NCBI RefSeq assembly: GCF_037113415.1
Contig: NZ_CP146608.1
Coordinates: forward strand, 2,872,501-2,936,500
Length of the DNA: 64,000 bases
Source of the DNA: Devosia sp. XK-2
Lineage (GTDB): Bacteria; Pseudomonadota; Alphaproteobacteria; Rhizobiales; Devosiaceae
Reading direction: 5' to 3'
Part shown: piece after piece, positions 10,166-48,156 of the stretch
How the letters are laid out: each line of letters opens with the position of its first letter
Numbering within the stretch: position 1 is the stretch's first letter
The notes under the pieces: model-generated
Told to the model about the DNA's origin: nothing
The model's input: only the letters and a program-made list of their open reading frames with translations
Database searches by the model: none
Made by a program: the position numbers and the translations under genes

Positions 10166-10168
10166 AAC

Positions 10169-11194: not shown

Positions 11195-11468
11195 CGACAT
11201 TGCGGGCAACACGCCAAGCCGCCCAACCGATCAGCCCCGGGTATGACCCAGGCAGATGAAGACCACCAACAGCGCCACGTCCTCTTTAACCCTAATGCCC
11301 GATCCAGCGTCCCCTGTTGCGCCACGGCAACGTCACAAAAAAGCCAGGATTTCCGCCACATCCGCGCCCCATTAGCTGGTGATTAACCAGTCTGGCACAC
11401 CCGGTTTTAAGATTAAGCGCGGTAAATGCTGCCCTTAAGATTTTAGCTTTCTCTCGTAGGAGCCCGCC

Positions 11469-11963
11469 TTGGCCATCCCCACCCCCATCAATACCGCCCT
11501 GCGCGCTGCAGCCATGATGCTGTTCGTCGTCGTCATCGCCGCCTGTTCGCGCAGCGCCACCGACAATGTCGGCCTGACCGGCGTCGGCAATACCGGCGCC
11601 GGTGCGCCGGGCAGCCAGCAGGAATTCATCGTCACCGTGGGTGATCGTGTGTTCTTTGAAACCGATTCCAGCTCGCTGACCAGCGAAGCCATGGCCACGC
11701 TCGACAAGCAGGCCCAGTGGCTCAACCAATATGCCAATTACCGCATCATGATCGAAGGCCATGCCGACGAACGCGGCACCCGCGAATACAATATCGCCCT
11801 GGGTGCCCGTCGCGCCTCGGTGGTGGTGAACTATCTGGTGAGCCGCGGCGTCAATGCCCAGCGCATTACCAGCCAGTCTTTCGGCAAGGAGCGCCCGGTG
11901 GCGATCTGTAACGACATTTCCTGCTGGAGCCAGAACCGCCGCGCCGTCACGGTCGTGCAGTAA
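11469..11963 (+). CDS. pal: Peptidoglycan-associated lipoprotein Pal
   Basis: This 164-residue outer-membrane lipoprotein has a lipobox at VIAAC with C26 as the lipidated residue. An OmpA-like domain with IEGHADERGTREYNIALGARRA, NYLVSRG and NRRAVTVV follows. I chose a TTG start at 11469 because AGGAG (11458-11462) sits six bases upstream. Pal links the outer membrane to peptidoglycan and works with TolB. The 274-bp gap upstream holds a CTGGT-GATTA-ACCAG hairpin and two TTAAGATT copies, probably promoter elements. Unlike the usual layout, tolQRAB are not directly upstream; cpoB does follow. Confidence 0.93.
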   Translation: MAIPTPINTALRAAAMMLFVVVIAACSRSATDNVGLTGVGNTGAGAPGSQQEFIVTVGDRVFFETDSSSLTSEAMATLDKQAQWLNQYANYRIMIEGHADERGTREYNIALGARRASVVVNYLVSRGVNAQRITSQSFGKERPVAICNDISCWSQNRRAVTVVQ

Positions 11964-27172: not shown

Positions 27173-27524
27173 GGATGACACTGCAATCATAGAAGCCCTC
27201 TCCGCCCTGGCGCAGCCGACCCGCCTCGCGGCCTTCCGCCTGGCGGTTGAACACGAGCCCGACGGCTTGCCGGCCGGCGAGATCGCGCGCCGGCTCGAGG
27301 TGCCGCAAAACACCATGTCCACCCATCTGGCCCAATTGGCCCGCGCCGGCCTGCTTGTGGCCGAAAAGCACGGGCGCACCATCGCCTACCGCGCCCAGAT
27401 CGACCATATGCGGGCGGTGATGGGCTATCTCGTCAATGACTGTTGCGGCGGCCGGCCCGAGCTCTGTGCGCCGCTAATCGAGGACATCACCCCCTGCTGC
27501 GTTCCCGAGGAGGCTCGCCAATGA
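27171..27524 (+). CDS. arsR: ArsR family arsenite-responsive repressor
   Basis: This 117-residue winged-helix repressor (IIEALSALAQPTRLAAFRLAVEHEPDGLPAGEIARRLEVPQNTMSTHLAQLARAGLLVAEKHGRTIAYR) ends with two cysteine pairs, NDCCGGRPELC and TPCCVP. These could bind As(III), rather than the ELCVC motif of the classical type. It heads the operon arsR-arsC-aqp-arsC, and its palindromic operator overlaps its start codon. The stop overlaps the next start (ATGA), so the operon is translationally coupled. Confidence 0.92.
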   Translation: MDDTAIIEALSALAQPTRLAAFRLAVEHEPDGLPAGEIARRLEVPQNTMSTHLAQLARAGLLVAEKHGRTIAYRAQIDHMRAVMGYLVNDCCGGRPELCAPLIEDITPCCVPEEARQ

Positions 27525-28057
27525 CCGACGACCAGACCGACCGCGTCTACAACGTATTGTTCCTGTGCACCGGCAATTCTGCCCGCTCCGTCCTAGGCGA
27601 GGCGATCATGAATGCCGCGCCGGGCGGCAAGTTCAAGGCTTTCTCGGCCGGCAGCCAGCCAAAGGGCGAGGTTAATCCGCTGACCCTGCATACGCTCAAG
27701 GAAATGGGCCTGCCCACTGAGGGCTATCGCTCCAAATCCTGGGACGAATTCGCCATGCCCGACGCACCCAAGCTCGATTTCGTCTTCACTGTCTGCGATG
27801 ATGCGGCCGGCGAAACCTGTCCCTTTTGGCCCGGCCAACCCATGACCGCCCATTGGGGTGTTGCCGACCCGGCCGCCGTCGAGGGCAGCGAATTGGACAA
27901 GGTCAATGCCTTCCGCAACGCTGCCAATTTCCTGCGCCGCCGCATCGAGGTCTTCACCGCCCTGCCGCTGGCCACCATCGACAAGATGTCGCTCAAGGCC
28001 AAGCTCAAGGATATCGGCAAGCTCGATGGCGCCACCGAAAAGGCCACCAATGGCTGA
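27521..28057 (+). CDS. arsC: Arsenate reductase, low-molecular-weight phosphatase (thioredoxin-coupled) type
   Basis: This 178-residue cytoplasmic enzyme reduces arsenate to arsenite. The P-loop is C16-TGNSA-R22, and the relay cysteines are C92 and C100 in VFTVCDDAAGETCPFWPG, the three-cysteine scheme of thioredoxin-linked ArsC. A GAGGAGG ribosome site precedes the ATG at 27521, which overlaps the arsR stop. The C-terminal 40 residues form a longer helix than in the Gram-positive enzyme. The product arsenite would leave through the aquaporin encoded next. Confidence 0.93.
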   Translation: MTDDQTDRVYNVLFLCTGNSARSVLGEAIMNAAPGGKFKAFSAGSQPKGEVNPLTLHTLKEMGLPTEGYRSKSWDEFAMPDAPKLDFVFTVCDDAAGETCPFWPGQPMTAHWGVADPAAVEGSELDKVNAFRNAANFLRRRIEVFTALPLATIDKMSLKAKLKDIGKLDGATEKATNG

Positions 28058-28721
28058 CCGGTTCCGCAATCTTGCCGCCGAGGCTTTGGGCACCGGCCTC
28101 CTGGTCGCCACCGTGGTCGGCTCGGGCATCATGGCACAACGCCTGACCGGCGACATCGCTTTGGCGCTCTGGGCCAATACGGCGGCCACCGGCGCAATTC
28201 TCGTGGTGCTGATCGGCCTGTTCGGGCCCATTTCCGGCGCCCATTTCAACCCGGCCGTGACCCTGGTCATGGCCCTCAAGCGCCAATTGAGCGCTGCCGA
28301 TGCCGGGTTCTATATTGTCGCCCAGATCTGCGGCGCCATGCTGGGCACGCTATTGGCACACCTGATGTTCGACCTGCCGCTGGTTTCGGCCTATGCTGAT
28401 CCGCGCAACGGGGCGAGCCAATGGCTCAGTGAAGTGGCGGCGACCTTTGGCCTGGTGCTGGTCATTCTGGTGTCGCTCCGGCATTCGTCCGAGCAGATTG
28501 CCCTGCGTGTCGGGCTCTATATCGCCGCCGCCTATTGGTTCACCGCTTCGACATCCTATGCCAATCCCGCTGTCACCATCGGCCGCGCATTGACGTCGAG
28601 CTTTGCCGGCATCGGCCCCGCCGATGTGCCCGGCTTTATCCTCGCCCAGATCGCCGGTGCTCTGCTCGCCCTGGCCCTTGCCACCTGGCTTCTGCGCGAC
28701 CCTTCGGAGCGATCAGCATGA
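28050..28721 (+). CDS. aqpS: Aquaporin/glycerol-facilitator family channel in the ars operon (AqpS-like)
   Basis: This 223-residue channel has six predicted helices and both NPA loops, HFNPAVT at residues 66-71 and YANPAVT at 170-175. Its place between two arsenate reductases, overlapping each by a few bases, matches the Sinorhizobium meliloti arsR-aqpS-arsC arrangement. There the channel lets arsenite made inside run out down its gradient. No ArsB or Acr3 pump is present in the operon. It starts at the ATG at 28050, inside the end of arsC. Confidence 0.9.
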   Translation: MADRFRNLAAEALGTGLLVATVVGSGIMAQRLTGDIALALWANTAATGAILVVLIGLFGPISGAHFNPAVTLVMALKRQLSAADAGFYIVAQICGAMLGTLLAHLMFDLPLVSAYADPRNGASQWLSEVAATFGLVLVILVSLRHSSEQIALRVGLYIAAAYWFTASTSYANPAVTIGRALTSSFAGIGPADVPGFILAQIAGALLALALATWLLRDPSERSA

Positions 28722-29137
28722 CGGTCACCATTTACCATAACCCCGATTGCGGTACGTCGCGCAACACGCTGGCCATGATCCGCGGCGCAGGTATCGAGCC
28801 CGACGTGATCCTTTACCGCGATACGCCGCCCAGCCGCCAGCGGCTCGTTCAATTGATCGAAGGCGCAGGTCTGTCTGTGCGCGACGCCATAAGGATCAAG
28901 GACACGCCCTATTTCGATCTGGGTCTGGATGACGTCTCGCTTTCAGAAGACGCCCTGCTCGATGCCATGCTGGACCATCCCATCCTCATCAATCGGCCCT
29001 TCGTTGAAACCGATCATGGCATTCGTCTATGCCGGCCCTCCGAAGTGGTGCTCGACATCCTGCCCGAGGCGCTTCGCATTCCCTTCACCAAGGAAGACGG
29101 AGAGATGGTCATCGACCAGGACGGCAAACGAGTCTGA
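28718..29137 (+). CDS. arsC: Arsenate reductase, glutaredoxin-coupled type
   Basis: This 139-residue ArsC has the thioredoxin-fold active site NPDCGTSRNTL with the catalytic C11 and the C-terminal family segment LLDAMLDHPILINRPFVETDHGIRLCRP. It uses glutathione and glutaredoxin, a different and unrelated mechanism from the first arsenate reductase of the same operon. It overlaps the aquaporin stop by four bases (ATGA). The operon ends here; no strong terminator is seen. Confidence 0.93.
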   Translation: MTVTIYHNPDCGTSRNTLAMIRGAGIEPDVILYRDTPPSRQRLVQLIEGAGLSVRDAIRIKDTPYFDLGLDDVSLSEDALLDAMLDHPILINRPFVETDHGIRLCRPSEVVLDILPEALRIPFTKEDGEMVIDQDGKRV

Positions 29138-29200
29138 CTGGTCAGAGGCGGCAAAGCGCCCTACCTATGGGTCAGCAAGCCCCAAACGGACCCGAGCCCC

Positions 29201-29527
29201 GTGCCCCTGCCCGAAGACAATCACCTCACCGTTATCGCCGAGACCTATCGCCTGCTCGGCGACCCCACCCGCCTCAAGGTGGTGCTGACTTGCCTGGAAG
29301 GCCCAATCGCGGTGGGCGATATCGCCGGCAGGATCGGCGCCAGCCAGTCGCTGGTCAGCCACCATCTGCGCCTTTTGCGCGCCGCCCGGCTGGTGCGGGG
29401 CACCCGGCGCAACAAGCAGGTCCTGTACGAGGCCGCCGACGATCACATTGCCCGCATGCTTTCGGACATGATTGCCCATGCCATGGAAGAGCACGACCCG
29501 GCCGAGGAAGACGAGGACCGCGACTGA
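29201..29527 (+). CDS. ArsR/SmtB-family metal sensor
   Basis: This 108-residue winged-helix repressor (TYRLLGDPTRLKVVLTCLEGPIAVGDIAGRIGASQSLVSHHLRLLRAARLVRGTRRNKQVLYEAAD) has a metal-site-like last helix, DDHIARMLSDMIAHAMEEH. The D-x-H-x10-H part of the CzrA/SmtB alpha-5 zinc site is kept; the final ligand is shifted. The GTG at 29201 is the only reasonable start, with a weak ribosome site. It precedes the cation diffusion facilitator and probably controls it through the palindromes at 29606-29633. It resembles the DmeR/CzrA type. Confidence 0.88.
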   Translation: MPLPEDNHLTVIAETYRLLGDPTRLKVVLTCLEGPIAVGDIAGRIGASQSLVSHHLRLLRAARLVRGTRRNKQVLYEAADDHIARMLSDMIAHAMEEHDPAEEDEDRD

Positions 29528-29605
29528 CAGCAGGCACTAGGCCGGCGGAACCGTCCCAGCCAGGGCCCGTTGCCAAGCAGAGAGTGGCATATTGACTTCG
29601 TGATA

Positions 29606-29633
29606 TATGAATGTATGTTCATATGTACATTCA
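29606..29633. promoter_or_regulatory. ArsR/SmtB-type operator before the cation exporter
   Basis: TATGAA-TGTATG-TTCATA (29606-29623) is a perfect SmtB/CzrA-like 6-6-6 site. An overlapping, wider repeat TGAATGTA...TACATTCA spans 29608-29633. The block sits just before the exporter start and is strongly AT-rich. Confidence 0.85.
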
Positions 29634-29635
29634 AT

Positions 29636-30625
29636 ATGGAGCAACCAGTGGCGGAAGACGAACACAAGCATGACCACGGCGCCCACAGTCATGTTCATCC
29701 CTCCCATGATCACGACCATGCCGGCCATAGCCACGCGCCCAAAGTCAGCGCGGGCAATGAACGGGCCGTATTGATCGGCCTCTGCCTGACGGCCGGCTTC
29801 ATGGTGGCCGAAATCATTGGCGGCGTGCTATCCGGATCATTGGCGCTGATTGCCGATGCCGGGCATATGCTGACCGATACCATAGCGCTGTTTCTGGCCT
29901 GGCTGGGCTTCAGACTGGGGCGCCGGCCCGCCGATGCCCGCCGCAGCTTCGGCTATTCGCGGCTCGAGGTTCTGGCCGGTCTCATCAATGCCCTGTCGCT
30001 TTTTGCCCTGGTCGGTTGGATCGCCTATGAGGCGGTGCAGCGCTTTTTCAGCCCCGAAGAGGTCCTCGCCGGCCCCATGCTGATCGTCGCGGTGCTGGGC
30101 CTGGTGGTCAATCTGGTAGTCTTCCGCATTCTGTCGAGCGCCGATGCCGACCACGTCAATATCAAGGGCGCTTTACTCCATGTTCTGGGCGACCTGCTCG
30201 GCTCGGTCGGCGCCATCGCCGCGGCTGTCACCATCTGGCTGACCGGCTGGATGCCAATTGACCCGATCCTGTCGGTCCTCGTCGCCATACTCATTCTGCG
30301 AAGTGCCTGGGCGCTGTTGATGCGGACCTTCAACATTCTCATGGAAGGCGCACCCGACGGCGTGGACATTGCAGAAGTGCGCGCAGACCTGCGCCGGGCC
30401 ATACCGGGCCTCATCGATGCCGGCCATCTCCATGTCTGGGCCCTGTCTTCAGGCAAGACCATGGCGACGCTGGACATTGCCCTTGCCCCCAATGCCGACC
30501 CCGCAACGGTCACTGCCGCCGTCAAAGAGCGGCTGGAGCATGAGCACGACATCGGCCATGCGACCGTGGAAATCGACTGGGGCGGCGATGCGGCCAGCTG
30601 TCCCGCGGCGGCCGCTCGGCATTAA
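29636..30625 (+). CDS. Cation diffusion facilitator metal exporter
   Basis: This protein of about 329 residues is an inner-membrane metal:proton antiporter with six helices. It has a histidine-rich N-terminus (HKHDHGAHSHVHPSHDHDHAGHSH), the metal-site helices SLALIADAGHMLTDTIAL and LLHVLGDLLGSVGAIAA, and a cytoplasmic C-terminal domain. Substrates would be Zn, Co or Ni. The ATG at 29636 lies against the operator without a clear ribosome site; the GTG at 29648 follows GGAG by six bases and may be the true start. Its stop overlaps the stop of the convergent SDR gene. Confidence 0.9.
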   Translation: MEQPVAEDEHKHDHGAHSHVHPSHDHDHAGHSHAPKVSAGNERAVLIGLCLTAGFMVAEIIGGVLSGSLALIADAGHMLTDTIALFLAWLGFRLGRRPADARRSFGYSRLEVLAGLINALSLFALVGWIAYEAVQRFFSPEEVLAGPMLIVAVLGLVVNLVVFRILSSADADHVNIKGALLHVLGDLLGSVGAIAAAVTIWLTGWMPIDPILSVLVAILILRSAWALLMRTFNILMEGAPDGVDIAEVRADLRRAIPGLIDAGHLHVWALSSGKTMATLDIALAPNADPATVTAAVKERLEHEHDIGHATVEIDWGGDAASCPAAAARH

Positions 30626-32718: not shown

Positions 32719-33768
32719 ATGCGACTGCTGATCGTCGATGACAGCCGATCCAGCCTTGCGCTGATCGGAAGCATCATCAAGGACACAGTGATGGGTGAGA
32801 TCGAGCTCTGCCTCAATCCGCTCGAGGCACTGAAACTGTGCCAGGATCAGCAGTTCGACCTGATCATTGTCGACCACATCATGCCCGAAATGGACGGCGT
32901 CGCCTTTACTGCGGCCCTGCGGTCCCGCCCCAGCTACCGCATCGTCCCCATTATCATGGTCACCTCCGACCTCGACAAGGCCGTCCGGATCGAGGCGATC
33001 AAGGCCGGCGCCACCGACTTCCTCCACAAACCCTTCGACGCTACCGAGCTGCAGGCGCGCGTTACCAATCTGCTGGCGCTGCGCCTTGCACAGGTGGAAC
33101 TGGCCGACCGCGCCCAATGGCTGACGCGCGAAGTCGAACGTGCCACTGAACACCTCCTGGCGCGCGAGGAGGAAATCATCCACCGCCTCGCCCGCGCCAT
33201 CGAATATCGCGACGGCGACACGGGCGAACACGTCTCCCGCGTGGCCATGATCAGCCAATTGATCGGGGAAGGCATCGGCCTGCCGCCCGAGCGTTGCCGC
33301 ATGATCTATCTCACCGCCCCGCTGCACGATGTCGGCAAGATCGGCATTGCGGACGCCATCCTGTCCAAGCCGGGCAAGCTGACCGACGAGGAAATGGCGA
33401 TCATGCGCGAGCATGTGACCATCGGAGCCCGCATTCTGGAACGGGGTAGCTCGGACCTGATCCGCACCGCCGAACTGATCGCCCAGAGCCATCACGAAAA
33501 ATGGGACGGCACCGGCTATCCCGACCGCCTGGCAGGCGCTGACATTCCGGTCGAAGCGCGGATCGTGGCTATTGCCGATGTCTTTGATGCTCTTTGTTCG
33601 GAGCGTCCCTACAAACCGGCCTGGCCGATCGACAAGGCCTATGCCGAGATCGTCCGCTGCAGCGGCACCCATTTCGACCCGACCTGCGTGGCGGCCTTCC
33701 GCGCCAAATGGCCCGAGATCTCCGCCATCATGCAGCCAGAGGCTTCGCTTCAGGCCGTCGGCTTCTAG
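32719..33768 (+). CDS. Response regulator with HD-GYP domain (c-di-GMP phosphodiesterase)
   Basis: This 349-residue cytoplasmic regulator has an N-terminal receiver domain (D52 in LIIVDHIMPEMDG, lysine in LHKPF near 104) joined by a coiled linker to an HD-GYP domain. The catalytic HD is H203-D204 in LHDVGKIG, and the GYP motif is HHEKWDGTGYP (258-268). Such proteins break c-di-GMP to GMP when phosphorylated. The sensor kinase is not adjacent. It sits upstream of the che cluster, on the same strand but separated by a 485-bp regulatory gap. Confidence 0.93.
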   Translation: MRLLIVDDSRSSLALIGSIIKDTVMGEIELCLNPLEALKLCQDQQFDLIIVDHIMPEMDGVAFTAALRSRPSYRIVPIIMVTSDLDKAVRIEAIKAGATDFLHKPFDATELQARVTNLLALRLAQVELADRAQWLTREVERATEHLLAREEEIIHRLARAIEYRDGDTGEHVSRVAMISQLIGEGIGLPPERCRMIYLTAPLHDVGKIGIADAILSKPGKLTDEEMAIMREHVTIGARILERGSSDLIRTAELIAQSHHEKWDGTGYPDRLAGADIPVEARIVAIADVFDALCSERPYKPAWPIDKAYAEIVRCSGTHFDPTCVAAFRAKWPEISAIMQPEASLQAVGF

Positions 33769-34087: not shown

Positions 34088-34253
34088 GTGTGAGTATAGT
34101 ATCAAGCCGGATGGGAATACGGCGAAAAGATTATCGTAGAAACGTAGTAGCGAGCGCCACCCGCACCAGTCCTTTTCGCCTACCGATTTCCCAGCGCCCT
34201 TTGCGGTAGAGAGACAGAATGTCACCTATAGTAACTTGCGTACGGTCATACGC

Positions 34254-34580
34254 ATGACCGAACAGACACACATGCTCGTTTTGACGGGAGATGCAGGCAT
34301 CAAACAAGCAACCGAAGTTGCTGACAGCCTGCGCCAAGCCATCGACAATCACGCGGCAATTGCCATCGATACGCAGACCATTTCTGCGGCCGACATCACC
34401 ACCGTCCAGACCCTGCTTGCTGCCCGCGTCCATGCCCGTGCCAAGGGCAAGGCGCTGACGATGCTCGCGCCCCTGGGAGCACCGCTGCAAGCGGTGCTGG
34501 ATGCAGCCGGCTTTCTCACCCCTGGACAAGACCAGACGGCCTTCTGGTCCGCCACCACCGACAAGCCAGCAGGACACTGA
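34254..34580 (+). CDS. STAS-domain protein of the chemotaxis operon
   Basis: This 108-residue cytoplasmic protein has a STAS fold. The pattern is LTGDAGIKQATEVADSLRQAI, then AIAIDTQTISAADITTVQTLLAARVHARAKGKALTMLAPLGAPLQAVLDAAG. The usual anti-anti-sigma phosphoserine after the IDxxx strand aligns with the SAAD region, so phosphorylation is possible but unproven. I chose the ATG at 34254. STAS proteins occur at the head of several alphaproteobacterial che clusters; their function is not established. It is the first gene of a tightly packed operon that runs to 43899. Confidence 0.8.
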   Translation: MTEQTHMLVLTGDAGIKQATEVADSLRQAIDNHAAIAIDTQTISAADITTVQTLLAARVHARAKGKALTMLAPLGAPLQAVLDAAGFLTPGQDQTAFWSATTDKPAGH

Positions 34581-34583
34581 GCC

Positions 34584-34952
34584 ATGAGCAAGACCATTCT
34601 GACGATCGACGACAGCGCCTCCATCCGCCAGATGGTGGCCATGACGCTGAGCGGCGCCGGGCTTGATGTGCTCGAGGCCGGCAATGGCCAGGAGGGCTAT
34701 GAGGTGGCCACCACCAATACGGTCCATGCCATTCTGACCGACCTCAACATGCCTGTCCTCAACGGCATCGAATTTATCCGCAAATATCGGCAGCACCCCT
34801 CTTCCAAGGGCATTCCGATCATCCTGCTGACCACTGAATCCGATGACGAGCTCAAGCGTCAGGCCAAGGAAGCAGGCGCGACCGGCTGGATCGTCAAACC
34901 ATTCAAGCAGGACCAGTTGCTGGCCATCATCAAGAAGGTCACCGGTGCATGA
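34584..34952 (+). CDS. cheY: Chemotaxis response regulator CheY
   Basis: This 122-residue single-domain receiver has the acid pair D9-D10 (ILTIDDSAS), the phosphorylation site D53 (AILTDLNMPVLNG), T84 in LLTTES and K105 in WIVKPFKQ. CheY-P, made by CheA, binds the flagellar switch protein FliM/FliN or acts as a phosphate sink. It overlaps the start of cheA by four bases (ATGA). Confidence 0.95.
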   Translation: MSKTILTIDDSASIRQMVAMTLSGAGLDVLEAGNGQEGYEVATTNTVHAILTDLNMPVLNGIEFIRKYRQHPSSKGIPIILLTTESDDELKRQAKEAGATGWIVKPFKQDQLLAIIKKVTGA

Positions 34953-37003
34953 ACATTTCCGATCCCACCGAAACCTTCCGCCAGGAAGCGCGCGAACTGC
35001 TCGAAGAGCTGGAGGCGGGGCTGCTCGACCTCGAGCAGGATCCCTCCAATGCCGATCTCGTCAATTCCACCTTCCGGGCGCTGCACACCATCAAAGGCTC
35101 CGGAGCGATGTTCGGTTTCACTGCCGTGGCCGAATTCGTCCATGAATTCGAAACCGCCTTTGACCAGGTACGCAAAGGCCAGACCCAGGCCAACACAGCG
35201 CTGATCGAAGTGGCGCTCGAAGCCAAGGACCACATCCATCTGCTGATCGAGACGCCCGACGCCCGGATCGAGGGCGGCGAGGACATCCTGGCCCATCTGC
35301 GCGCCGTGGTGGCCGGGGAGACCGCGGCACCCAAGGCCGCGACCGCCAAACCGGCCAAGCCCGCCGCCGTCGCTGCGGCCGAGCCCCCGCCCAACCCCGT
35401 CCAATCGACCTGGCGGCTGGAATTTTACCTGCCCTCCGATGCTCTGATCTATGGCACCAATCCGCTGCTGCTGCTCGATGAACTGGCTCAGATCGGTCCG
35501 GCAACCATCACCGCATTGACCGACCGCATACCGGACCTGGCCGTGCTTGATCCGGAAACACCCCATATCGGCTGGCGGGTCGATATCGAGGCCGACGACC
35601 CGACATCGGCCATCGATGACGTGTTCCTGTTCCTCAAGGACAATATGGAACTGAGCCTGACCCGGCTTGCAGAGAGCACCGCCGAACCGGCCGCGCCGGA
35701 CATCGTTGCGACGGTGGAACCGGCCGAGCCCGAACTGGCCCCGGCTGCTCCCGTGCCCTCGCCTCCGTCCTCGTCTCCGCGGGCCAGGCCGGGCGCCGCA
35801 GCCGAAACCGCTGACCGCACCGCAGCCTCCTCCCTGCGTGTGCCGGCCGAGCGGTTGGACGAATTGATGGACCGTGTCGGCGAACTGGTGATTGCCCAGG
35901 CCCGGTTGAGCCAGATTGCCGGCCTGAGTTCCGACACTGCGCTCAAGACCATTGCCGAAGAACTGGAGCGTCTGTCCTCAGGCCTGCGCGACACGACAAT
36001 GGGCATTCGCATGGTGCCCATCGGCTCGCTGTTCAGCCGCTTCCGGCGTCTGGTCCACGACCTGTCGAGCGAATTGGGCAAGCCCATCGAGTTCATCACC
36101 TCGGGCGAAGAGACCGAGCTCGACAAGACTATGATCGAGCGCCTGGCCGATCCCCTGGTCCACCTTATCCGCAATTCGGTCGACCATGGTCTGGAAAACG
36201 CCGAGAAGCGCGCTGCTGCCGGCAAACCAGGCAAGGGCGTCGTGCGCCTGTCGGCGGTCTATTCTGGCGCCGAGGTAGCCATTTCCGTCGCCGATGATGG
36301 CGCTGGCCTCAATGCCGAGCGCATCCGCGCCAAGGCCGAGGAAAATGGGCTCATCACGCCCGAGACCAAGCTGACCGACCAGGAACTTTATCAGCTCATT
36401 TTTGCGCCGGGCTTTTCGACCGCCAAGGAAGTGACGTCCCTGTCCGGCCGTGGTGTCGGCATGGACGTGGTCAAGCGCACCATTGACGGTCTGCGCGGCA
36501 CGATCGATGTGTCCTCACGGCCCGGCCAGGGCGCGACCATGACCCTGCGCCTGCCCCTGACCCTGGCCATTATCGATGGCATGCTCGTGCGGGTCGGCAA
36601 TGGGCGATACACCATTCCCCTGGCTGCGGTCGAAGAATGCGTGGAACTGCCTGAAGGCATAGAGGCTCACGCCAAGGGCCGCAATTTCCTCGATATTCGC
36701 GGTGCACTGGTCCCCTATCTGCGGCTACGCGAAGTCTTCGGGATCAAGGGTGAGAGCGAGCCGCACCAGAAGGTGGTGATCGTCTCGTCCGGCGAGGGGC
36801 GCGTCGGCCTGGTGGTCGACCAGATCATCGGCAACAACCAGACGGTCATCAAGCAGCTTTCAAAGCTCCATTCAGGCATCAAGTCCTTTTCGGGGGCGAC
36901 TATCCTGGGCGACGGCACCGTGGCTCTGATCCTGGACACGACCCATCTCGTCGCGGCCGGCCAGGGCTATGTGGACCGCAACCAGATGGGGAGGGCGGCA
37001 TGA
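34949..37003 (+). CDS. cheA: Chemotaxis histidine kinase CheA
   Basis: This 684-residue kinase has an N-terminal Hpt domain with the phosphorylation site H46 (FRALHTIKGSGAMFGF). A P2-like domain (about residues 150-235) follows, then an Ala/Pro-rich linker. The P3 dimerisation helix pair comes next (PAERLDELMDRVGELVIAQARLSQ), then the P4 ATPase with the N box (LIRNSVDHGLENAEKR), G1 (SVADDGAGL) and G2 (SLSGRGVGMDVVKRTI) boxes. A CheW-like P5 domain closes the protein (VRVGNGRYTIPLAAVEECVEL). It receives receptor input through CheW and phosphorylates CheY and CheB. It overlaps cheW by four bases. Confidence 0.97.
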   Translation: MNISDPTETFRQEARELLEELEAGLLDLEQDPSNADLVNSTFRALHTIKGSGAMFGFTAVAEFVHEFETAFDQVRKGQTQANTALIEVALEAKDHIHLLIETPDARIEGGEDILAHLRAVVAGETAAPKAATAKPAKPAAVAAAEPPPNPVQSTWRLEFYLPSDALIYGTNPLLLLDELAQIGPATITALTDRIPDLAVLDPETPHIGWRVDIEADDPTSAIDDVFLFLKDNMELSLTRLAESTAEPAAPDIVATVEPAEPELAPAAPVPSPPSSSPRARPGAAAETADRTAASSLRVPAERLDELMDRVGELVIAQARLSQIAGLSSDTALKTIAEELERLSSGLRDTTMGIRMVPIGSLFSRFRRLVHDLSSELGKPIEFITSGEETELDKTMIERLADPLVHLIRNSVDHGLENAEKRAAAGKPGKGVVRLSAVYSGAEVAISVADDGAGLNAERIRAKAEENGLITPETKLTDQELYQLIFAPGFSTAKEVTSLSGRGVGMDVVKRTIDGLRGTIDVSSRPGQGATMTLRLPLTLAIIDGMLVRVGNGRYTIPLAAVEECVELPEGIEAHAKGRNFLDIRGALVPYLRLREVFGIKGESEPHQKVVIVSSGEGRVGLVVDQIIGNNQTVIKQLSKLHSGIKSFSGATILGDGTVALILDTTHLVAAGQGYVDRNQMGRAA

Positions 37004-40160: not shown

Positions 40161-41024
40161 TTGGCTGCCCTTGCACACCGACTTGATGAAGACGACCACC
40201 TCACCGACGCCGATTTCCGCAGGATTTCGGCCTTGATCAGCAGGCAGGTCGGCATCAAATTGCCCCCCACGAAACGGTTGATGGTCGAAGGACGGTTGCG
40301 CCGGCGCCTGCGCGCGCTCGATCTGCCTGGTTTTTCCGACTATGCCGACTATCTGTTTCGCCAGGATGGCCTGGAGAGCGAGATCACCTTCCTGATCAAC
40401 GCGGTCACCACCAACAAAACCGATTTTTTCCGCGAGCCCGAACATTTCGAGCTGATGCACAAGCAATTGGTGGCCGACCTCATCGAGCGGCGCCAGGAAC
40501 GCATGCCATTGCTCAAGGTCTGGAGCGCAGCCAGTTCTACAGGAGCCGAGGCCTATACCATTGCCATGGTATTGGCCGACATGGCTGCGCAACGACGCGA
40601 CTTCCGCTTTGCCGTGCTGGGCACCGACATTTCAACCGATGTGCTCGAAACCGGCCGCCGCGCCATCTATCCCGCCGAGTTGGTGATGCCCGTGCCGCCG
40701 GGCATGCAATCGCGCTATCTCATGCATGCCCGCCGTCCCGGCGCCCGGCCCGATATTCGCATCGTGCCCGAATTGCGTCGCCTGGTGCGTTTCGACCAGC
40801 TCAACCTGATGGATACCAATTATCCCTATGACCGCGACGTCGACATTATCTTTCTGCGCAATGTGCTGATCTATTTCGAGAAGGCCGATCAGGCCGCCGT
40901 CATTTCCCGGCTCGTGGGACACTTGCGGCCCGGCGGTTATCTCCTTCTTGGCCATTCCGAATCTATGGTCGGCACTTCGATCACCATGCGGCAGGTCGCA
41001 CCGGCCGTGTTCCAGAAGACGTGA
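40161..41024 (+). CDS. cheR: Chemotaxis methyltransferase CheR
   Basis: This 287-residue SAM-dependent enzyme methylates glutamates on the MCP signalling domain. An N-terminal all-helix domain (about residues 10-80) is followed by the methyltransferase core: [29 protein letters not shown] (SAM loop), [16 protein letters not shown], and [43 protein letters not shown] chose a TTG start at 40161 because GGAG (40150-40153) lies seven bases upstream and the family domain begins there. It meets cheB tail to head. Confidence 0.95.
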
Positions 41025-41038
41025 GGCGGACCGAAGCG

Positions 41039-42169
41039 ATGAAAGACAAGATCCGCGTCCTGATTGTCGACGACAGCGCTTCGGTGCGCACCACACTCTC
41101 CGACATCATCTCGGCCGATCCCGACCTTGAGGTCATGGCGACGGCGGCCGACCCCTATGTGGCCGTCGAGCGCATCCGCCAGGAAGTGCCCGACGTGATA
41201 TTTCTCGATATCGAATTGCCGCGCATGGACGGCATCACCTTCCTCAAGAAGATCATGTCCCAGCGCCCCATTCCGGTGGTGATCTGTTCCAGCCTTGCCC
41301 AGGATGGCTCGGACGCCTTCATGCAGGCGCTTGAGGCCGGAGCCGTGGATGTCGTTGCCAAGCCGCGCGTCGATACCGCCCAGTTCCTGCAGGAGTCGCG
41401 GATGCGCATATGCGATGCCGCCAAGGCCGCCGCGCACGCCAAAATGCGCGGTCTGGCCAAACCCTCGCCGGTGCTGCGTCAGCCCGCGGCCGACCTGAAG
41501 GTGGAGGCTAAGCTGAGCGCCGACGCCATCATCCCGCCCATTTCCGACGCAAGGCGGGAAAGCCTGATCGCCCGCATGCCGGTAACCGAACCCCTTGTCG
41601 CCATTGGCGCCTCGACCGGTGGCACCGAAGCCCTGCGCGAAGTGCTGGAGGCCCTGCCGGCCAATTGCCCGCCTATTCTGATCGTGCAGCATATGCCAGA
41701 GCGGTTCACGACCGCCTTCGCCCGCCGGCTGGACATGAGTTGCGCCGTAAGGGTCAAGGAGGCCCAGGACGGCGACCTGGTGCAGCCCGGCCTGGTGCTG
41801 GTCGCCCCGGGCAATCTGCATATGCTACTGGTCCGGAACGGAGCGCGTTATACCGTTTCGATCAAGGAAGGACCCCATATTTCCCGCCACCGTCCTTCGG
41901 TCGATGTGCTCTTCCGCTCCACCGCCCAGTCTGCGGGCCGCAATGCCATGGGCATATTGCTCACCGGCATGGGCGATGACGGTGCGCGGGGACTGCTCGA
42001 AATGCGCCAGATGGGTAGTCCCACCATTGCCCAGGACGAAGCCAGCTGCGTGGTGTTCGGCATGCCCAAGGAAGCCATTCAACGCGGCGGCGCCGCCCGC
42101 ATTCTCCCCCTTTCCAGGATGGCCGGCGAAATCGCCGCGCATAGCGCCTCGGCCGGAGCAAGCAAGTGA
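41039..42169 (+). CDS. cheB: Chemotaxis methylesterase CheB
   Basis: This 376-residue protein has an N-terminal receiver (D11, D12, phosphorylation site D57 in [13 protein letters not shown]) and a C-terminal methylesterase. The catalytic serine is in [15 protein letters not shown], the histidine in [17 protein letters not shown], and the aspartate in MGDDGARG. It removes methyl groups from receptors when phosphorylated by CheA. I chose the ATG at 41039; a GTG at 41021 overlapping the cheR stop is possible. The last gene of the operon overlaps its end. Confidence 0.95.
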
Positions 42170-43899
42170 CCCAATCTGCCGACCCAAAAACCATTCGACG
42201 CCTTGTTCAAGACCTGGAGCGCCCGCGCCAGGATATTGAAGCCGCCTTCGTCGCCGTCGGTGGCCGTCTGACCGAGGGCGCGGCGCTGCTCAACAAGCTC
42301 TCCAAGCTATTCGAAGCGCTGCCCCAAGCATTGGGCGGCGCACAGGTGGAAGAAGCCAGCGCCCATTTGCGCACCGTGGCCACCCGTGCCGAGCAATTGG
42401 CCGCAACCTTCGCCCAGGAGAAGGGTGATCTGATGAGGCTTGGTGAGGTCGTTGCCGCAGCCAATGCGCCTATCGCCGATCTCAGGCGGACGGTCAAAAT
42501 GATGGGTATCGTCTCGGTCAATGCGCGCGTTACAGCGGCCGGCATTGTGGGCGACAGTGACGATTTCGACGTCTTCACCAATGATATCGCCACCCTGTCC
42601 GACTCGGCCAGCCGAACGATCCAGGATTTCGCCCAGGTCTATCGCCAGCTCACCACCGAGGTCGACCGCGCCGCCGACCAGAGAGCGCGCTTTGAGGCGG
42701 CCCATGCCGATACCCTGACCCATCTGGGCAGGAGCCTGGCTGAAACGCTATCTGCTCTCGACCGGCAGCGCGCGACCGCGCTGGAGAGCAGCACGGAAAC
42801 CGGCCGCGTCTCCAAACAGATCGTCGGACGGATCGGCAGCGCCGTCATGTCCTTGCAAGTGGGCGATGCGACGCGCCAGCGCATTGAACATGCCGAACTG
42901 GCCCTGACATCACTGGCCGATCTGGTCGAGGGCGGCGCGGCCTTTGGACAGACGCTAGCGGACGAAACCAAGGCGCCGGCCATAGCGGGCATTGCCGCCC
43001 TGCAGCAGCAGCAAATCGCCAATATCGCGCAAAGCTTTGCCCAAGAGGTGCAACAGGCCGAGGCCGACCTGGCGGCCCTTGCCGCCGATGCCGGCATCAT
43101 AATGGCCCGCAGCCGCGACTTTCATGGCGACGAAACCGGCAAGGGCTCGTCCGTGGCCAGCCTCAATGCCCAATTGCGCAAGGCCGTGACCATATTGGCA
43201 GATTTCGAAACCGAACGCGAAAAGCTCGAAACGGTCGCCCATGCCGTACAGGATACGGTGCGAACGCTGCTTGAGCATGTCGAGGCGGTGCAGGAAATCG
43301 AGTCCAATATGCGCCTGGTCAGCCTCAACGCCGCGGTGCGTTGCGCCCAGCTCGGACCGCGCGGCGCCTCGCTGACCGTCATCGCCACCCAATTGCGCGA
43401 ATTGACCAGCGAAACCGTCGTCGCGGCCGAAGCGGCCATGGCGCGGCTCGATGAATCCTCGGCCCTGGCCGGGTCGTTCGGCGCCGCCTCGGACCAGGGG
43501 AGCGGCCAGATCAGCGAGCTTGAAGGTCAGGCCACCCTGGCGCTCGACATCCTCTCCAGGCTCGACGAAAATCTCGCCGCCGCACTCGGCCGGCTCAATA
43601 GCGACGGCCCCAAGGTCATCGACTTGCTCGAAAAAGCAGCCCAGGGCCTTTCGGGCCAGTCAGCCATGGCCGAAGCCCTAGACGACATCGCCATCGCCAC
43701 GGCATCGCTCAGCCCCGAAGCGCCCCCCGAGAAGATATCGCCGGCACTAGGCAATGTGCTGGCCGGTTTGCGCAAAAGCTACACGATGGAAGCCGAGCGC
43801 CATATCCACGACCGGCTCTTCCCCGAAGATGCAGCCACCGCAGACACCACTGACGAGCGGGCGACCGACATGGATGATTTGGCTGCGTTCATGTTGTAG
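42166..43899 (+). CDS. Receptor-like coiled-coil protein with two degenerate MCP tips and a CheZ-like motif
   Basis: This 577-residue soluble protein starts at the GTG at 42166, inside the cheB end, and has no signal peptide or membrane helix. It is helical throughout. Two stretches resemble the MCP hairpin tip: residues 113-141 ([13 protein letters not shown]...FTNDIATLS) and 382-412 ([16 protein letters not shown]...VIATQLREL). In the second, Tsr N381 is kept but the equivalents of E385, R388 and E391 are R, Q and P. Between them, residues 229-242 ([14 protein letters not shown]) carry D234-x-T-x-Q238, like the CheZ active-site helix. The operon lacks cheZ, cheC and cheX. Its role is unproven. 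Confidence 0.75.
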
Positions 43900-44019: not shown

Positions 44020-44089
44020 ACAAGACGATAGGCCTTGGGCAGCATTGTAGCAGTTGCACCCGACCAGTAGTGTCCAAGGAGGAAGAACG

Positions 44090-45052
44090 ATGAGCGGCAG
44101 CATCTTCACCGGCGTGATTCCGGCGCTCATGACCCCTTGCACGCCTGATCGCATGCCGGACTTCGACGAATTGGTCCGCAAAGCCCGCGAGCTTGTCGAT
44201 ATCGGGATGTCAGCGGTGGTCTATTGCGGCTCGATGGGCGACTGGCCGCTCTTGGCCGATGCGCAGCGCCGGGAGGGCGTGACCCGTCTGGTGGAGGCCG
44301 GGCTCAAGGTCATTGTCGGGACCGGCGCAGTCAATACCGCGTCCGCCGTCTCCCATGCCGCCCATGCCCAAAAGGTCGGTGCAGCCGGTCTCATGGTCAT
44401 TCCGCGCGTGCTCTCGCGCGGCAGCTCACCCGCTGCGCAGAAGCTGCATTTCGAGGCCATTCTCGCAGCCGCGCCGGACCTGCCGGCCGTGATCTATAAT
44501 AGCCCACATTACGGTTTCGAGACCAAGGCTGATCTGTTCTTTGCGATTCGCGCAAAGCATCCCAATCTGGTTGGCTTCAAGGAGTTCGGCGGCAACAGGG
44601 CCATGACCTATGCCGCAGAGCATATTACCAGTGCCGATGACAGCGTAGTGCTGATGGCCGGCGTCGATACCGGCGTCTATCATGGCTATGTCAAAGCCGG
44701 CGCTACCGGCACGATTACCGGCATCGGCAATGCCCTGCCCAGGGAGGTGCTGCATATGGTGGCCCTCTGCAGGGCCGCCGCCGCGGGCGACCTTGAAGCG
44801 CGCCAGCGCGCCCGGGAACTGGGCGAGGCGCTCGAGGTACTTTCATCCTGGGATGAGGGCCCCGATCTGGTTCTGTATTACAAGTACATGCTCGAGCTGC
44901 AGGGTGAAGCGGCGTACAAACTGCATTTCAATGCCACTGACGAGCTCTCGCCCAGCCAGCGCGCCTGGGCGAAGGCGCAGTATGAGCAATTCAAGGCCTG
45001 GTATGCCCAATGGAACACGCTTCCCGGCGCGATACAGGCCTATCGGCGCTGA
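44090..45052 (+). CDS. DapA-family aldolase/deaminase, probably pyrroline-4-hydroxy-2-carboxylate deaminase
   Basis: This 320-residue class I (Schiff-base) enzyme of the dihydrodipicolinate synthase family has the catalytic K164 in LVGFKEFGG and Y136 in AVIYNSP. GSMGDW (47-52) stands where DapA has GTTGE. Next to a proline-racemase-family enzyme and a FAD amino-acid oxidase, it is best read as the deaminase that turns pyrroline-4-hydroxy-2-carboxylate into 2-oxoglutarate semialdehyde. The ATG at 44090 follows AAGGAGG. It is first in the operon, with the regulator gene ten bases downstream. Confidence 0.8.
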   Translation: MSGSIFTGVIPALMTPCTPDRMPDFDELVRKARELVDIGMSAVVYCGSMGDWPLLADAQRREGVTRLVEAGLKVIVGTGAVNTASAVSHAAHAQKVGAAGLMVIPRVLSRGSSPAAQKLHFEAILAAAPDLPAVIYNSPHYGFETKADLFFAIRAKHPNLVGFKEFGGNRAMTYAAEHITSADDSVVLMAGVDTGVYHGYVKAGATGTITGIGNALPREVLHMVALCRAAAAGDLEARQRARELGEALEVLSSWDEGPDLVLYYKYMLELQGEAAYKLHFNATDELSPSQRAWAKAQYEQFKAWYAQWNTLPGAIQAYRR

Positions 45053-45062
45053 CGAGGTGGGC

Positions 45063-45803
45063 ATGGACGAGGCGGGCATCCAGGCACCCGGAAAGACAGG
45101 CAGTGGTTCGAGAGCGCGCGTGCGCGGACAGGGCTCGCGCACCGTCTATGAAACGCTCAAGCAAGCCATTCTCGAATTGCGGCTCGAGCCCGGCAGCCCG
45201 CTCGACGAGATGACGCTGTCCGAACAGTTCGACATGTCCCGCACCCCGATCCGCGAGGCTCTGGTGCGCCTGGTGGCCGAGGGCCTGGCCCAGACACTGC
45301 CCAATCGCAATACCGTGGTCGCAACGATCGATTTCGAACAGTTGCCGGTCTATTTTGAGGCACTGACACTGATGTATCGCGTGACCACGCGGTCGGCCGC
45401 GGTGCATCGGACCCCGGATCACCTGGTGCAGATCAAAAAGCTGGCCGCCCTCTATGCCGGGACGGTGGCCAACCGCGATGCGCTGGGCATGATCCAGACC
45501 AATCGCGATTTTCACATGGCCATCGCCGAAGCAGGCGGCAACAGCTATTTTACCGGCCTGTTCGGCCGGCTGCTCGATGAAGGCCGCCGGATCCTGCGCG
45601 TCTACTATCGCTCCTTCGACGACAAGCTGCCGCGGCGCTATGTTGACGAGCATGAACAGATGATTGTGGCTATCGAGGCCGGTGACGCGGACCGCGCCGA
45701 CGCAATTGCCGCGGCCCATGCCGCCCAGATTGTCGCCCAGATCCAGGAGTACCTCGCCCGCTCGACCGTGACCGGCATGTCCCTGACGGCGGCTGCCCGC
45801 TAA
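45063..45803 (+). CDS. GntR-family regulator, FCD type
   Basis: This 246-residue regulator has an N-terminal winged helix (about residues 20-85, SRTVYETLKQAILELRLEPGSPLDEMTLSEQFDMSRTPIREALVRLVAEGLAQTLPNRNTVVA) and an FCD ligand domain (about 95-235, with HMAIAEAGGN and DEHEQMIVAIEAGDADRADAIAAAH). FCD domains often bind a metal and a small acid. It lies inside the operon it should control. The GAGGTGGG site precedes the ATG at 45063. Its stop overlaps the next start by one base. Confidence 0.88.
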   Translation: MDEAGIQAPGKTGSGSRARVRGQGSRTVYETLKQAILELRLEPGSPLDEMTLSEQFDMSRTPIREALVRLVAEGLAQTLPNRNTVVATIDFEQLPVYFEALTLMYRVTTRSAAVHRTPDHLVQIKKLAALYAGTVANRDALGMIQTNRDFHMAIAEAGGNSYFTGLFGRLLDEGRRILRVYYRSFDDKLPRRYVDEHEQMIVAIEAGDADRADAIAAAHAAQIVAQIQEYLARSTVTGMSLTAAAR

Positions 45804-47086
45804 TGGCAAAAGTCGCGGTAGTCGGTGCCGGCATAATCGGGGCGACGATCGCCGCGCGGCTGATTATCGATGGCCACCATGTCATCAGCTTTGAGCCCGA
45901 ACCACATGGCCTGCCCACATCCTCGGGCAATGCCGCCCTGATCGCCCTGCCCGAAATTGCGCCGATTGCCAGCCCGGGCATGTTCAGCCAGGTTCCGAAA
46001 TGGCTGCTCGATCCGCTCGGTCCCTTGACATTGCATTGGCTGGACATTCCGGCGCTGTTGCCATGGCTCATCGCCTTCCTGGCGCGCGCCACGCCATCGC
46101 ATGTCAGCCAGGCGCGGACGGCCCTGAGCAATCTGATGCGAACCGCGCTCGCCGACCATCGGACCTTGGGCGAGGCCATTGGCTTGACCGATCATCTGCG
46201 CCAGACTGGGTATATGTCGCTGCATGACAGCATGGCCAGCCTGGTGGCGGCCAAGCAAGAGGCCGAGCAGGTCCGGGAGCTGCTCGATTTCGACTATGCC
46301 GTACTGACGCCGCAGGAGGCGCGACACCTCGAACCGCGGCTGGAGGGGCAATTTGCCGGCGCGATACATCAACCCAGCTATTGGACAGCGACGAACCCGC
46401 TGACCGTGCTGCGGGCCTATCAGTCCTTTGTGGCTGGCCGGGCAGAAATGGTGGCCGAACGCGTCTTGCGCCTGTCGCAGGGCCAAGACGGGATCACCGT
46501 GCATACACCCACCAGCGCTGCGCTGTTCGACAAGGTCGTGGTCGCGGCCGGCATCTGGTCGCGCGATCTGGTGCGGCCGCTCGGCACCAAGGTGCTGCTC
46601 GAAACCGAGCGCGGCTACAACACCACCTATAGCGATCTCGGCTGGAACCTTAATTTGCCCATCGGTTTTGCCGATCACGGCTTTGTCGCCACGCCCCTGG
46701 TCGATGGCCTGCGGGTTGGCGGCGCCGTCGAACTGGCGAGGCCGGAAACCAGCCCCAACTACGCCCGGGCCCGCGCCATGCGGATCAAGATGCGGCGCTA
46801 TGTGCCGAGCCTGCCCGAGGGCGGCACCGAATGGATGGGCCGGCGCCCCTCGACGCCCGATTCCATTCCCGTCATCGGCCCGCATCCTGGCGATGAACGG
46901 ATCGTACATGCTTTCGGTCACGGCCATCTTGGCCTGACGCTGAGTGCGGTGACGGCCCGCCTGGTCTCCGCGCTCATCTCCGACGCGGCCATCGACATAG
47001 ACCCCTCGCCCTATGAGCTGCACCGCTTTGGGCAAAAAAATGGCCGGTTGGCGGGGTCCCGCAACGCCCCGCGGCAGCCCGGATGA
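45803..47086 (+). CDS. FAD-dependent D-amino-acid dehydrogenase (D-hydroxyproline type)
   Basis: This 427-residue DadA-like flavoprotein has the N-terminal FAD motif VAVVGAGIIGATIAARL, a SSGNAALIALPEIAP segment, and the C-terminal GRRPSTPDSIPVIGPHPGDERIVHAFGHGHLGLTLSAVTA. It lacks a signal peptide. In hydroxyproline pathways such an enzyme oxidises cis-4-hydroxy-D-proline, made by the epimerase, to pyrroline-4-hydroxy-2-carboxylate, the substrate of the DapA-like deaminase. It overlaps the regulator gene by one base. Confidence 0.85.
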   Translation: MAKVAVVGAGIIGATIAARLIIDGHHVISFEPEPHGLPTSSGNAALIALPEIAPIASPGMFSQVPKWLLDPLGPLTLHWLDIPALLPWLIAFLARATPSHVSQARTALSNLMRTALADHRTLGEAIGLTDHLRQTGYMSLHDSMASLVAAKQEAEQVRELLDFDYAVLTPQEARHLEPRLEGQFAGAIHQPSYWTATNPLTVLRAYQSFVAGRAEMVAERVLRLSQGQDGITVHTPTSAALFDKVVVAAGIWSRDLVRPLGTKVLLETERGYNTTYSDLGWNLNLPIGFADHGFVATPLVDGLRVGGAVELARPETSPNYARARAMRIKMRRYVPSLPEGGTEWMGRRPSTPDSIPVIGPHPGDERIVHAFGHGHLGLTLSAVTARLVSALISDAAIDIDPSPYELHRFGQKNGRLAGSRNAPRQPG

Positions 47087-47121
47087 AGCGCCGCAATGAC
47101 AGCATTGTTTGAGGAACCGCC

Positions 47122-48156
47122 ATGCGCTGGTCGAAAACTGTAACCCTGGTGGAGGCCCATGCCGAAGGGGAAGTCGGACGGATCGTCACCGGCGGCGTGA
47201 TCGATATTCCCGGCGCTACCATGGCCGACAAGCTCAGGCACCTCAATGAGGTGGACGACAGCCTGCGCCGCTTCCTCGTTTTCGAACCACGCGCCTCGGC
47301 ACAGATGAGCACCTGCCTGGTCTTTCCGCCAACCCGTCCCGATGCCGATATCGGCTTCATTATCCTGCAGGGCGACAAGGCCCATGCCATGTCCGGCTCC
47401 AATGCGATCTGCCTGACCACCGTCCTGCTCGAAACCGGCATGTTGCCTATGGCGGAACCGGAAACATTGGTGCGGATCGATACCGCTTCTGGCCTGGTGA
47501 CCGCCCGCGCGAGCTGCCGCGACGGCAAGGTGGAGCGGGTCACGCTGACCATGAACCCCTCCTATGCCCATCAACTCGACGCGGTGGTGGAGGTGGAAGG
47601 CTACGGCCAGGTCAGGCTCGACATTGCCTATGGCGGCATTTTCTACGCGCTGATCAACCCCGCTCAATTGGGGCTGGAAATCAGGCCGGACACGGCCAGG
47701 AAGCTGGTCGAAGCGGGCAGCGCCATCCATCGCGCCGTCAATGCGCAGCTCGACATTGCTCATCCCGAACTGCCCGATATGAAGGGCATTTCCTATACAA
47801 TGTTTGTCGGGCACAACCAGGAGGGCGAACTCAAGGGCGCCACCATCATGCCGCCCGGCCGCATCGACCGCTCGCCCTGCGGGACCGGCAATTCGGCTCG
47901 TCTGGCCGTGGCTGCGGCGCGGGGCCTGGCCAGGCCGGGCGACCGCTTCACCGCCCGCTCGATCATCGATTCCAGTTTTGAGGTGCATTATGCCGGCGAT
48001 ACAAGCGTTGCCGGCCGCCCGGCAGTGCAGCCGGTAATTTCCGGCCGGGCGTGGATCCACGGTATCCACCAGATCGGGGTGGATCCAACCGATCCCTATC
48101 CGCTGGGCTATTCGGTATCCGACACCTGGGGCGATGCATTCGACCTGATGCAGTAG
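47122..48156 (+). CDS. Proline-racemase-family enzyme with Ser/Cys catalytic pair (4-hydroxyproline epimerase or 3-hydroxyproline dehydratase)
   Basis: This 344-residue proline racemase fold enzyme has the second catalytic cysteine at C253 in DRSPCGTGNSARLA. The first catalytic position, normally C in MCGHN, is S91 in AMSGSNAIC. Ser/Cys members of this family are reported to epimerise trans-4-hydroxy-L-proline and/or dehydrate trans-3-hydroxy-L-proline, so the pathway entry point is open. GPG and DPTDPYPLGYSVSDTWG motifs near the C-terminus fit the family. It is the last gene of the operon. Confidence 0.85.
   Translation: MRWSKTVTLVEAHAEGEVGRIVTGGVIDIPGATMADKLRHLNEVDDSLRRFLVFEPRASAQMSTCLVFPPTRPDADIGFIILQGDKAHAMSGSNAICLTTVLLETGMLPMAEPETLVRIDTASGLVTARASCRDGKVERVTLTMNPSYAHQLDAVVEVEGYGQVRLDIAYGGIFYALINPAQLGLEIRPDTARKLVEAGSAIHRAVNAQLDIAHPELPDMKGISYTMFVGHNQEGELKGATIMPPGRIDRSPCGTGNSARLAVAAARGLARPGDRFTARSIIDSSFEVHYAGDTSVAGRPAVQPVISGRAWIHGIHQIGVDPTDPYPLGYSVSDTWGDAFDLMQ

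Follow-up and report, generated by a model that had tools for sequence, protein, structure and literature searches.

A conserved receptor-like protein encoded at the end of accessory che operons is a candidate CheY-P phosphatase with a CheZ/CheT-like helix

INTRODUCTION

CheZ uses a Gln, which orients the attacking water at the active site of CheY, and an Asp, which anchors CheY and pairs with K92 in E. coli CheY; the C-terminal tail of CheZ captures CheY.

Chemotaxis clusters of rhizobia are described in papers whose accessible portions are drawn on here. A rhizobial F7 cluster carries cheS, cheD and cheT (PMC8429497), and CheT of Sinorhizobium is a DXXXQ phosphatase (PMC12654446). F8 clusters contain two cheW genes and MCPs (PMC8429497, PMC7617929), and the accessible descriptions of F8-class accessory clusters include no CheY phosphatase. 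The Che2 cluster of Rhizobium leguminosarum comprises nine genes, of which cheB2 is the last, and is reported to influence nodule maturation (PMC7617929), and che3 of Bradyrhizobium diazoefficiens is reported to lack cheY and not to promote chemotaxis (PMC13390405, 2026).

Here, we analysed a 64,000-nt stretch of the Devosia sp. XK-2 genome (hereafter, the window) with a che operon that fits the description of F8 clusters, a likeness by description and not a profile classification. An earlier note on this DNA had proposed the 577-aa product of the last gene of the operon, a receptor-like protein, as a candidate CheY phosphatase. This protein belongs to a family that is conserved as part of accessory che operons and has been overlooked, and no such protein is named in open-access titles and abstracts among the matches listed.

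RESULTS

The gene and its operon

The operon reads STAS-cheY-cheA-cheW-mcp-cheW-cheR-cheB, with the gene of the 577-aa protein as its last member. On the + strand, the first gene encodes a STAS-domain protein (34236..34580), followed by cheY (34584..34952, Pfam Response_reg), which is the proposed substrate, and cheA (34949..37003). Immediately upstream of the 577-aa gene lies cheB (41021..42169, +), given here as the longest ORF with an uncertain true start. The CDS of the 577-aa protein (42166..43899, +) begins with GTG and shares four bases with the cheB stop, as GTGA at 42166. Length, frame, coordinates and the D234-x-T-x-Q238 motif were all as the earlier note had given them, and its reading of a protein without membrane segment agrees with a maximum Kyte–Doolittle 19-mer of only 1.32, compared with 2.38 in the MCP of the operon. 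The protein has no HAMP match, and no Pfam or NCBIfam family matched it over its cut-off.

Other parts of the window were read by eye. An arsenic-resistance-like cluster at 27443-30625 holds genes for an arsenate-reductase-like phosphatase, a MIP channel, a glutaredoxin-type arsenate reductase and an ArsR-like regulator, followed by one for a CDF cation exporter. The region 44054-48156, which lies downstream of the operon, contains DapA-like, GntR-type regulator, DadA-like oxidase and proline-racemase-like genes that may serve hydroxyproline use.

Distribution and synteny of the family

Whole-protein searches found the gene in 27 of 41 genomes of the genus and gave matches in 11 of 150 genomes of the order (8 near full length, 3 partial). 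In the phylum, a profile search at E 1e-20 matched 17 of 398 genomes; two of the 17 lie outside the class, and one of these two matches is partial. The family is found mostly in Alphaproteobacteria, at the ends of che operons, and remains full-length while identity among members goes down to 20%. Homologues were found in Bradyrhizobium, three plasmid-borne relatives lie in or beside che clusters, and two scans of viral contigs gave no relatives. A scan of named genomes yielded 394 relatives, and 79 loci were retained; it is unusable as proof of the motif, because it was run with GD[AS]TRQR[IL]E and YTMx[ARK]ERx[IV]H as peptide patterns. Members are annotated as hypothetical protein, chemotaxis protein or type VII secretion target; the last label, carried by a Shinella homologue (L194, NZ_CP093339.1, locus 9947-11671), is apparently a misannotation. 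One genome (G163; L117, a Devosia ginsengisoli MAG) has a second copy, broken by internal stops, beside the intact one.

The nearest recognised upstream gene on the same strand is CheB in 100 of 109 loci, a number that takes in the window's own locus and genes present twice via two collections. Three of the other nine have another che gene upstream, two have che genes in the opposite direction and four have no other che gene, the available sequence being partly short. At least two CheA-type loci (PF02895) are present in 26 of the 27 carriers of the genus, the exception (G186, an assembly 78% complete) having one, and among the 14 non-carriers 12 have one such locus, G177 has two and G165 (62% complete) has none. 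Therefore, the gene travels with the window-type operon, and nearly all 41 genomes keep another CheA.

The 4-base overlap with the cheB stop recurs in 30 of 37 relatives with a readable junction (of 50 non-redundant ones), and a gene for an RR-HD protein lies near the operon here (32719-33768) and in several relatives. Both observations would suit a phosphatase or antagonist of another receiver, i.e. of the neighbouring CheB-P or of the RR-HD protein instead of CheY. However, one member (L027) adjoins STAS-cheY rather than cheB, and the CheZ-like tail described below points to CheY, so that we regard another receiver as improbable.

Conservation is strongest at the D-x-T-x-Q motif

Conservation was determined for 51 non-redundant members (<85% identity). 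The top 12-residue window is 231-242 (42856..42891, +), reading QxGDxTRQRxEH, with a value of 0.744 against a mean of 0.38 per residue, and we refer to it as the putative active-site helix; the two receptor-like tips average 0.52 (residues 113-141) and 0.59 (382-412). Invariant in 51/51 are F28, G32, L35, Q231, G233, D234, Q238, R239, H242, N388, G397, Y539, M541, R545 and H548, of which the first three belong to a conserved patch of helix 1 (residues 25-35; 42238..42270, +) and the last four to a second family signature (residues 539-548; 43780..43809, +). Residues 24-35 would face 219-230 across an antiparallel hairpin with a turn near residue 127, so that the helix 1 patch would lie opposite the motif and the invariant patches might cluster at the end remote from the tips.

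D and Q are kept in all 28 members from the whole-protein search, and in 23/23 rows of profile or tblastn matches among those listed (E 1e-30 or stronger), distant members included, the motif being used in neither search. These 23 rows represent 20 places, 16 of them not in the set of 28, and one member has Ala for T236 with D and Q kept. Of 111 family ORFs, among which some genes are counted twice because two collections supplied them, 108 contain D.T.QR[IVL], versus 3 of 4,699 other ORFs at these loci, most of which are not genes; one of the three is a broken copy of the family.

Other candidate phosphatases in carrier genomes

No CheZ domain was found in the 41 genomes of the genus, and neither CheX nor CheC in 16 carrier genomes, the window's genome included; CheC and CheX are also not among the Pfam matches of the 577-aa protein. 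Across the order, CheZ is present in 96 of 150 genomes, and three of the eight with the full-length gene (G035, G058 and G112) have it, elsewhere in the genome among the matches listed. The premise that a CheY phosphatase is missing, from which the candidacy had been drawn, thus holds for the operon but not for the genome, because a second che cluster (L182) has a CheT-like DxxxQ protein. This cluster contains genes for STAS, CheY, CheA, CheW, CheD, MCP, CheR, CheB, a second CheY and the CheT-like protein, all but CheD identified by BLASTP or by eye, and resembles the rhizobial F7 cluster with cheS, cheD and cheT.

The CheT-like gene (L182:5980-6333 = G000:C1:3326979-3327332, +), which lies beside cheD, encodes 117 aa with ALQGQDRIEQR and the terminal sequence GDAELF. 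Its product had no NCBIfam match, no Pfam family over cut-off and no match in plasmids. Of the 150 genomes of the order, 8 matched with the single sequence and 7 with a five-sequence profile, strong matches being confined to the five genomes of the window organism's own taxonomic family.

Comparison with CheZ and CheT-like helices

A CheZ helix profile of 38 columns, made from 19 CheZ of the same order and E. coli CheZ, was slid ungapped over the family profile. The best of 540 registers places the catalytic Asp on D234, and with the D, T and Q columns masked this register is still first (z 3.8; runner-up 3.1). CheZ from the same order reads CNFQDLTGQRITKV or close. Likewise, a CheT-like helix profile from five sequences of the organism's own taxonomic family has the best of its 544 registers at D234/Q238 (z 5.7). 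The score of either helix profile was reached by 0 of 1000 column permutations, a lenient null, which ignores helix periodicity and which the CheT N-helix also beats at the unrelated residues 401-436. In a single BLASTP comparison with the CheT-like protein of the same genome, D57 pairs with D234 (31% over 112 aa, E 2e-5), and hhalign of the 51-member profile against this protein aligned another region, 452-545 (7.8%). The C-terminal segment of CheT has its best register with the YTM motif at 528-547; this match is not claimed, because 233 of 1000 permutations reach its score. The exact-register fits and the invariance of D and Q weaken the concern, expressed when the motif was first seen, that it could be a convergent helix pattern.

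The family is not a member of CheZ: Pfam CheZ (PF04344) matched none of the 51 members at E 0.01, and hhalign of the 51-member profile against E. coli CheZ gave nothing (0.1%), so that profile membership was rejected. Moreover, when 4,810 ORFs were scanned for the CheZ helix by raw score, the outcome argued against the helix by itself being specific. The family median was 15.4 and the 577-aa protein scored 13.8, against a 99th percentile of 26.7 for non-family ORFs, and other ORFs, mostly MCP helices, reached 32.7, the leading MCP matches having the Asp without the Gln. Since MCP helices score above the family, the scan was rejected as a detector; 101 of 110 family ORFs have their best position at the motif and nine elsewhere.

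Measured from D, the hydrophobic stripe that follows the motif sits at 194 degrees, compared with 196 in E. coli CheZ, 211 in CheZ of the order and 195 in the CheT-like protein. Helix phase lends weak support, because the same phase criteria are found at 14 of 526 positions of the 577-aa protein and the stripe before the motif, which E. coli CheZ does not have, agrees only in part. Against a CheZ-type reading counts the CheY of carrier operons, which by eye has an acidic residue at the position of K92 in E. coli CheY: cheY at 34827-34856 encodes LTTESD[DE]xLK, acidic at E. coli K91/K92, in 34 of 41 carrier-locus copies (duplicates included). R237 and R239 of the family could supply the complementary charge.

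An acidic-hydrophobic C-terminal tail

The last residues of the protein, 566-577 (43861..43896, +), form a candidate CheY-docking peptide that had previously gone unnoticed; it is conserved and resembles the tail of CheZ from the same order. Of 20 CheZ, 13 have such a tail, and the tail profile made from these 13 was best at residues 569-577 (10.2), narrowly ahead of register 21-29 (9.3). C-terminal ends of CheZ in the order read [DS]DID[AS]LF plus one residue in 13 of 19. A looser tail pattern is present in 44 of 51 members versus 3 of 4,699 other ORFs and a strict one in 21 of 51 versus none, a weak control because most of these ORFs are not genes; the last residue is F, L or M in 49/51.

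Other proteins of this genome have similar ends. CheD of the second che cluster (L182:5221-5874, -) terminates in VDDIELF, beside the GDAELF of the CheT-like protein. As a lead only, this suggests a CheY-docking tag shared by CheZ, the CheT-like protein, CheD and the 577-aa family within one order.

Receptor-like tips

Two MCP-like tips had been described in the protein, and they fared differently. Tip 2 (residues 382-412; 43309..43401, +) stood, its region (355-422) matching the MCP tip with an hhalign probability of 95%, with canonical hairpin-tip residues replaced (VEAARAGE to VRCAQLGP); the residues lost are presumably those that contact CheA and neighbouring receptors. Tip 1 (residues 113-141; 42502..42588, +) is only weakly alike, its region (106-148) matching the same MCP region at 5.7% (13.7% when the N-half was aligned by itself). 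Aligned with each other, the N-half and C-half match over 53-164, and their tips fall roughly into register (hhalign 76%, E 2e-5). Taken together, an MCP-like tip 2 and aligning halves are consistent with a tandem hairpin in one chain.

The main rival explanation starts from these tips: a soluble atypical receptor or array scaffold that binds CheW/CheA or receptors, similar to BB0569 of Borrelia, with DxTRQ as a structural polar patch. Tip 2 is clearly MCP-derived and conserved, and the BB0569 family profile NF052273 weakly matches residues 106-246 (E 7e-4; 18.2 bits versus a cut-off of 1000). BB0569 is encoded between cheB2 and cheY2 and, according to the title of a cited paper, is essential for chemotaxis. 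However, the canonical tip residues are replaced, the strongest 12-residue conservation is at 231-242 and not at the tips, and a scaffold leaves the CheZ-like tail unexplained. We consider this rival possible but unlikely.

A normal MCP signalling domain was not assigned, Pfam MCPsignal (PF00015) reaching 18.4 bits, below its cut-off of 34.6. Weak matches of this kind, obtained in 29 of 51 members at E 0.01 (best 1.2e-8), would also be expected of a functionless degenerate MCP, but full-length members down to the lowest identities, invariant motifs and strong synteny make such a remnant very improbable. A plain MCP or decayed receptor was rejected, as conservation peaks outside the tips and the gene neighbourhood is strongly kept.

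DISCUSSION

We propose, with a probability of roughly 0.6, that the 577-aa protein dephosphorylates CheY-P by means of an active site of CheZ/CheT type carried on a receptor-derived rod. The earlier candidacy gains from the invariance of D and Q, from the exact-register fits to CheZ and CheT-like helices and from the CheZ-like tail, and loses from the whole-profile comparison without CheZ assignment and from the CheT-like candidate in the same genome. The family probably works like CheZ and CheT. It would act on its own as a response-regulator phosphatase, its most likely target being the CheY-P of this operon. D234 and Q238, separated by one turn of helix 2, would serve as the Asp/Gln pair, the Gln orienting the attacking water at the active site of CheY and the Asp anchoring CheY. 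The acidic tail may capture CheY first, as the tail of CheZ does. The remainder would fold as two receptor hairpins in a soluble protein, probably reproducing the four-helix rod within one chain, and this architecture may bring the enzyme to the receptor array or close to it. The family, its conservation and synteny, the register fits and the lack of CheZ, CheC and CheX matches are observed; fold, CheY binding, catalysis and localisation are inferred.

The family is thus a candidate for the off-switch missing from this class of che systems, and offers a directly testable signal-termination step. A more specific version, which we put forward tentatively and hold to be rather doubtful, is a phosphatase built from a receptor: two receptor hairpins would form a pseudo-dimer rod whose base carries the active site of CheZ/CheT type, and the tail, perhaps a common docking tag, would catch CheY. 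If this is true, the receptor array could, through its state, act as a direct gate on the removal of CheY-P.

Compared with known systems, the family combines features of several. With CheZ (PF04344) it shares D-x-T-x-Q on a helix, followed by R-[IL]-x-K-V in CheZ of the order and by R-I-E-H-A/V in the 577-aa family, and an acidic-hydrophobic C-terminal tail, ...DDIDALF in CheZ and ...DLDDLFF in relatives of the 577-aa protein. It differs in length (577 aa versus 214 in E. coli CheZ), in its two MCP-like hairpins, in the +3 residue, which is Arg in the family and Gly in CheZ, and in the absence of any Pfam or profile match to CheZ. The likeness to CheT, drawn from the CheT-like protein of this genome and not from S. 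meliloti CheT, consists of an LQxxDxxxQR helix and an acidic-x-F tail end, whereas the CheT-like protein has 117 aa and belongs to the other, F7-like cluster. The BB0569 family (NF052273), known here by its profile and not by the BB0569 sequence, is likewise an atypical MCP-like protein of a che gene neighbourhood, although the 577-aa protein stays far below its cut-off. Finally, the protein has in common with the MCP signalling domain (PF00015) its tip 2 and a helical hairpin, but it is built without membrane segment or HAMP, with replaced tip residues, with two tips per chain, and with an added motif and tail.
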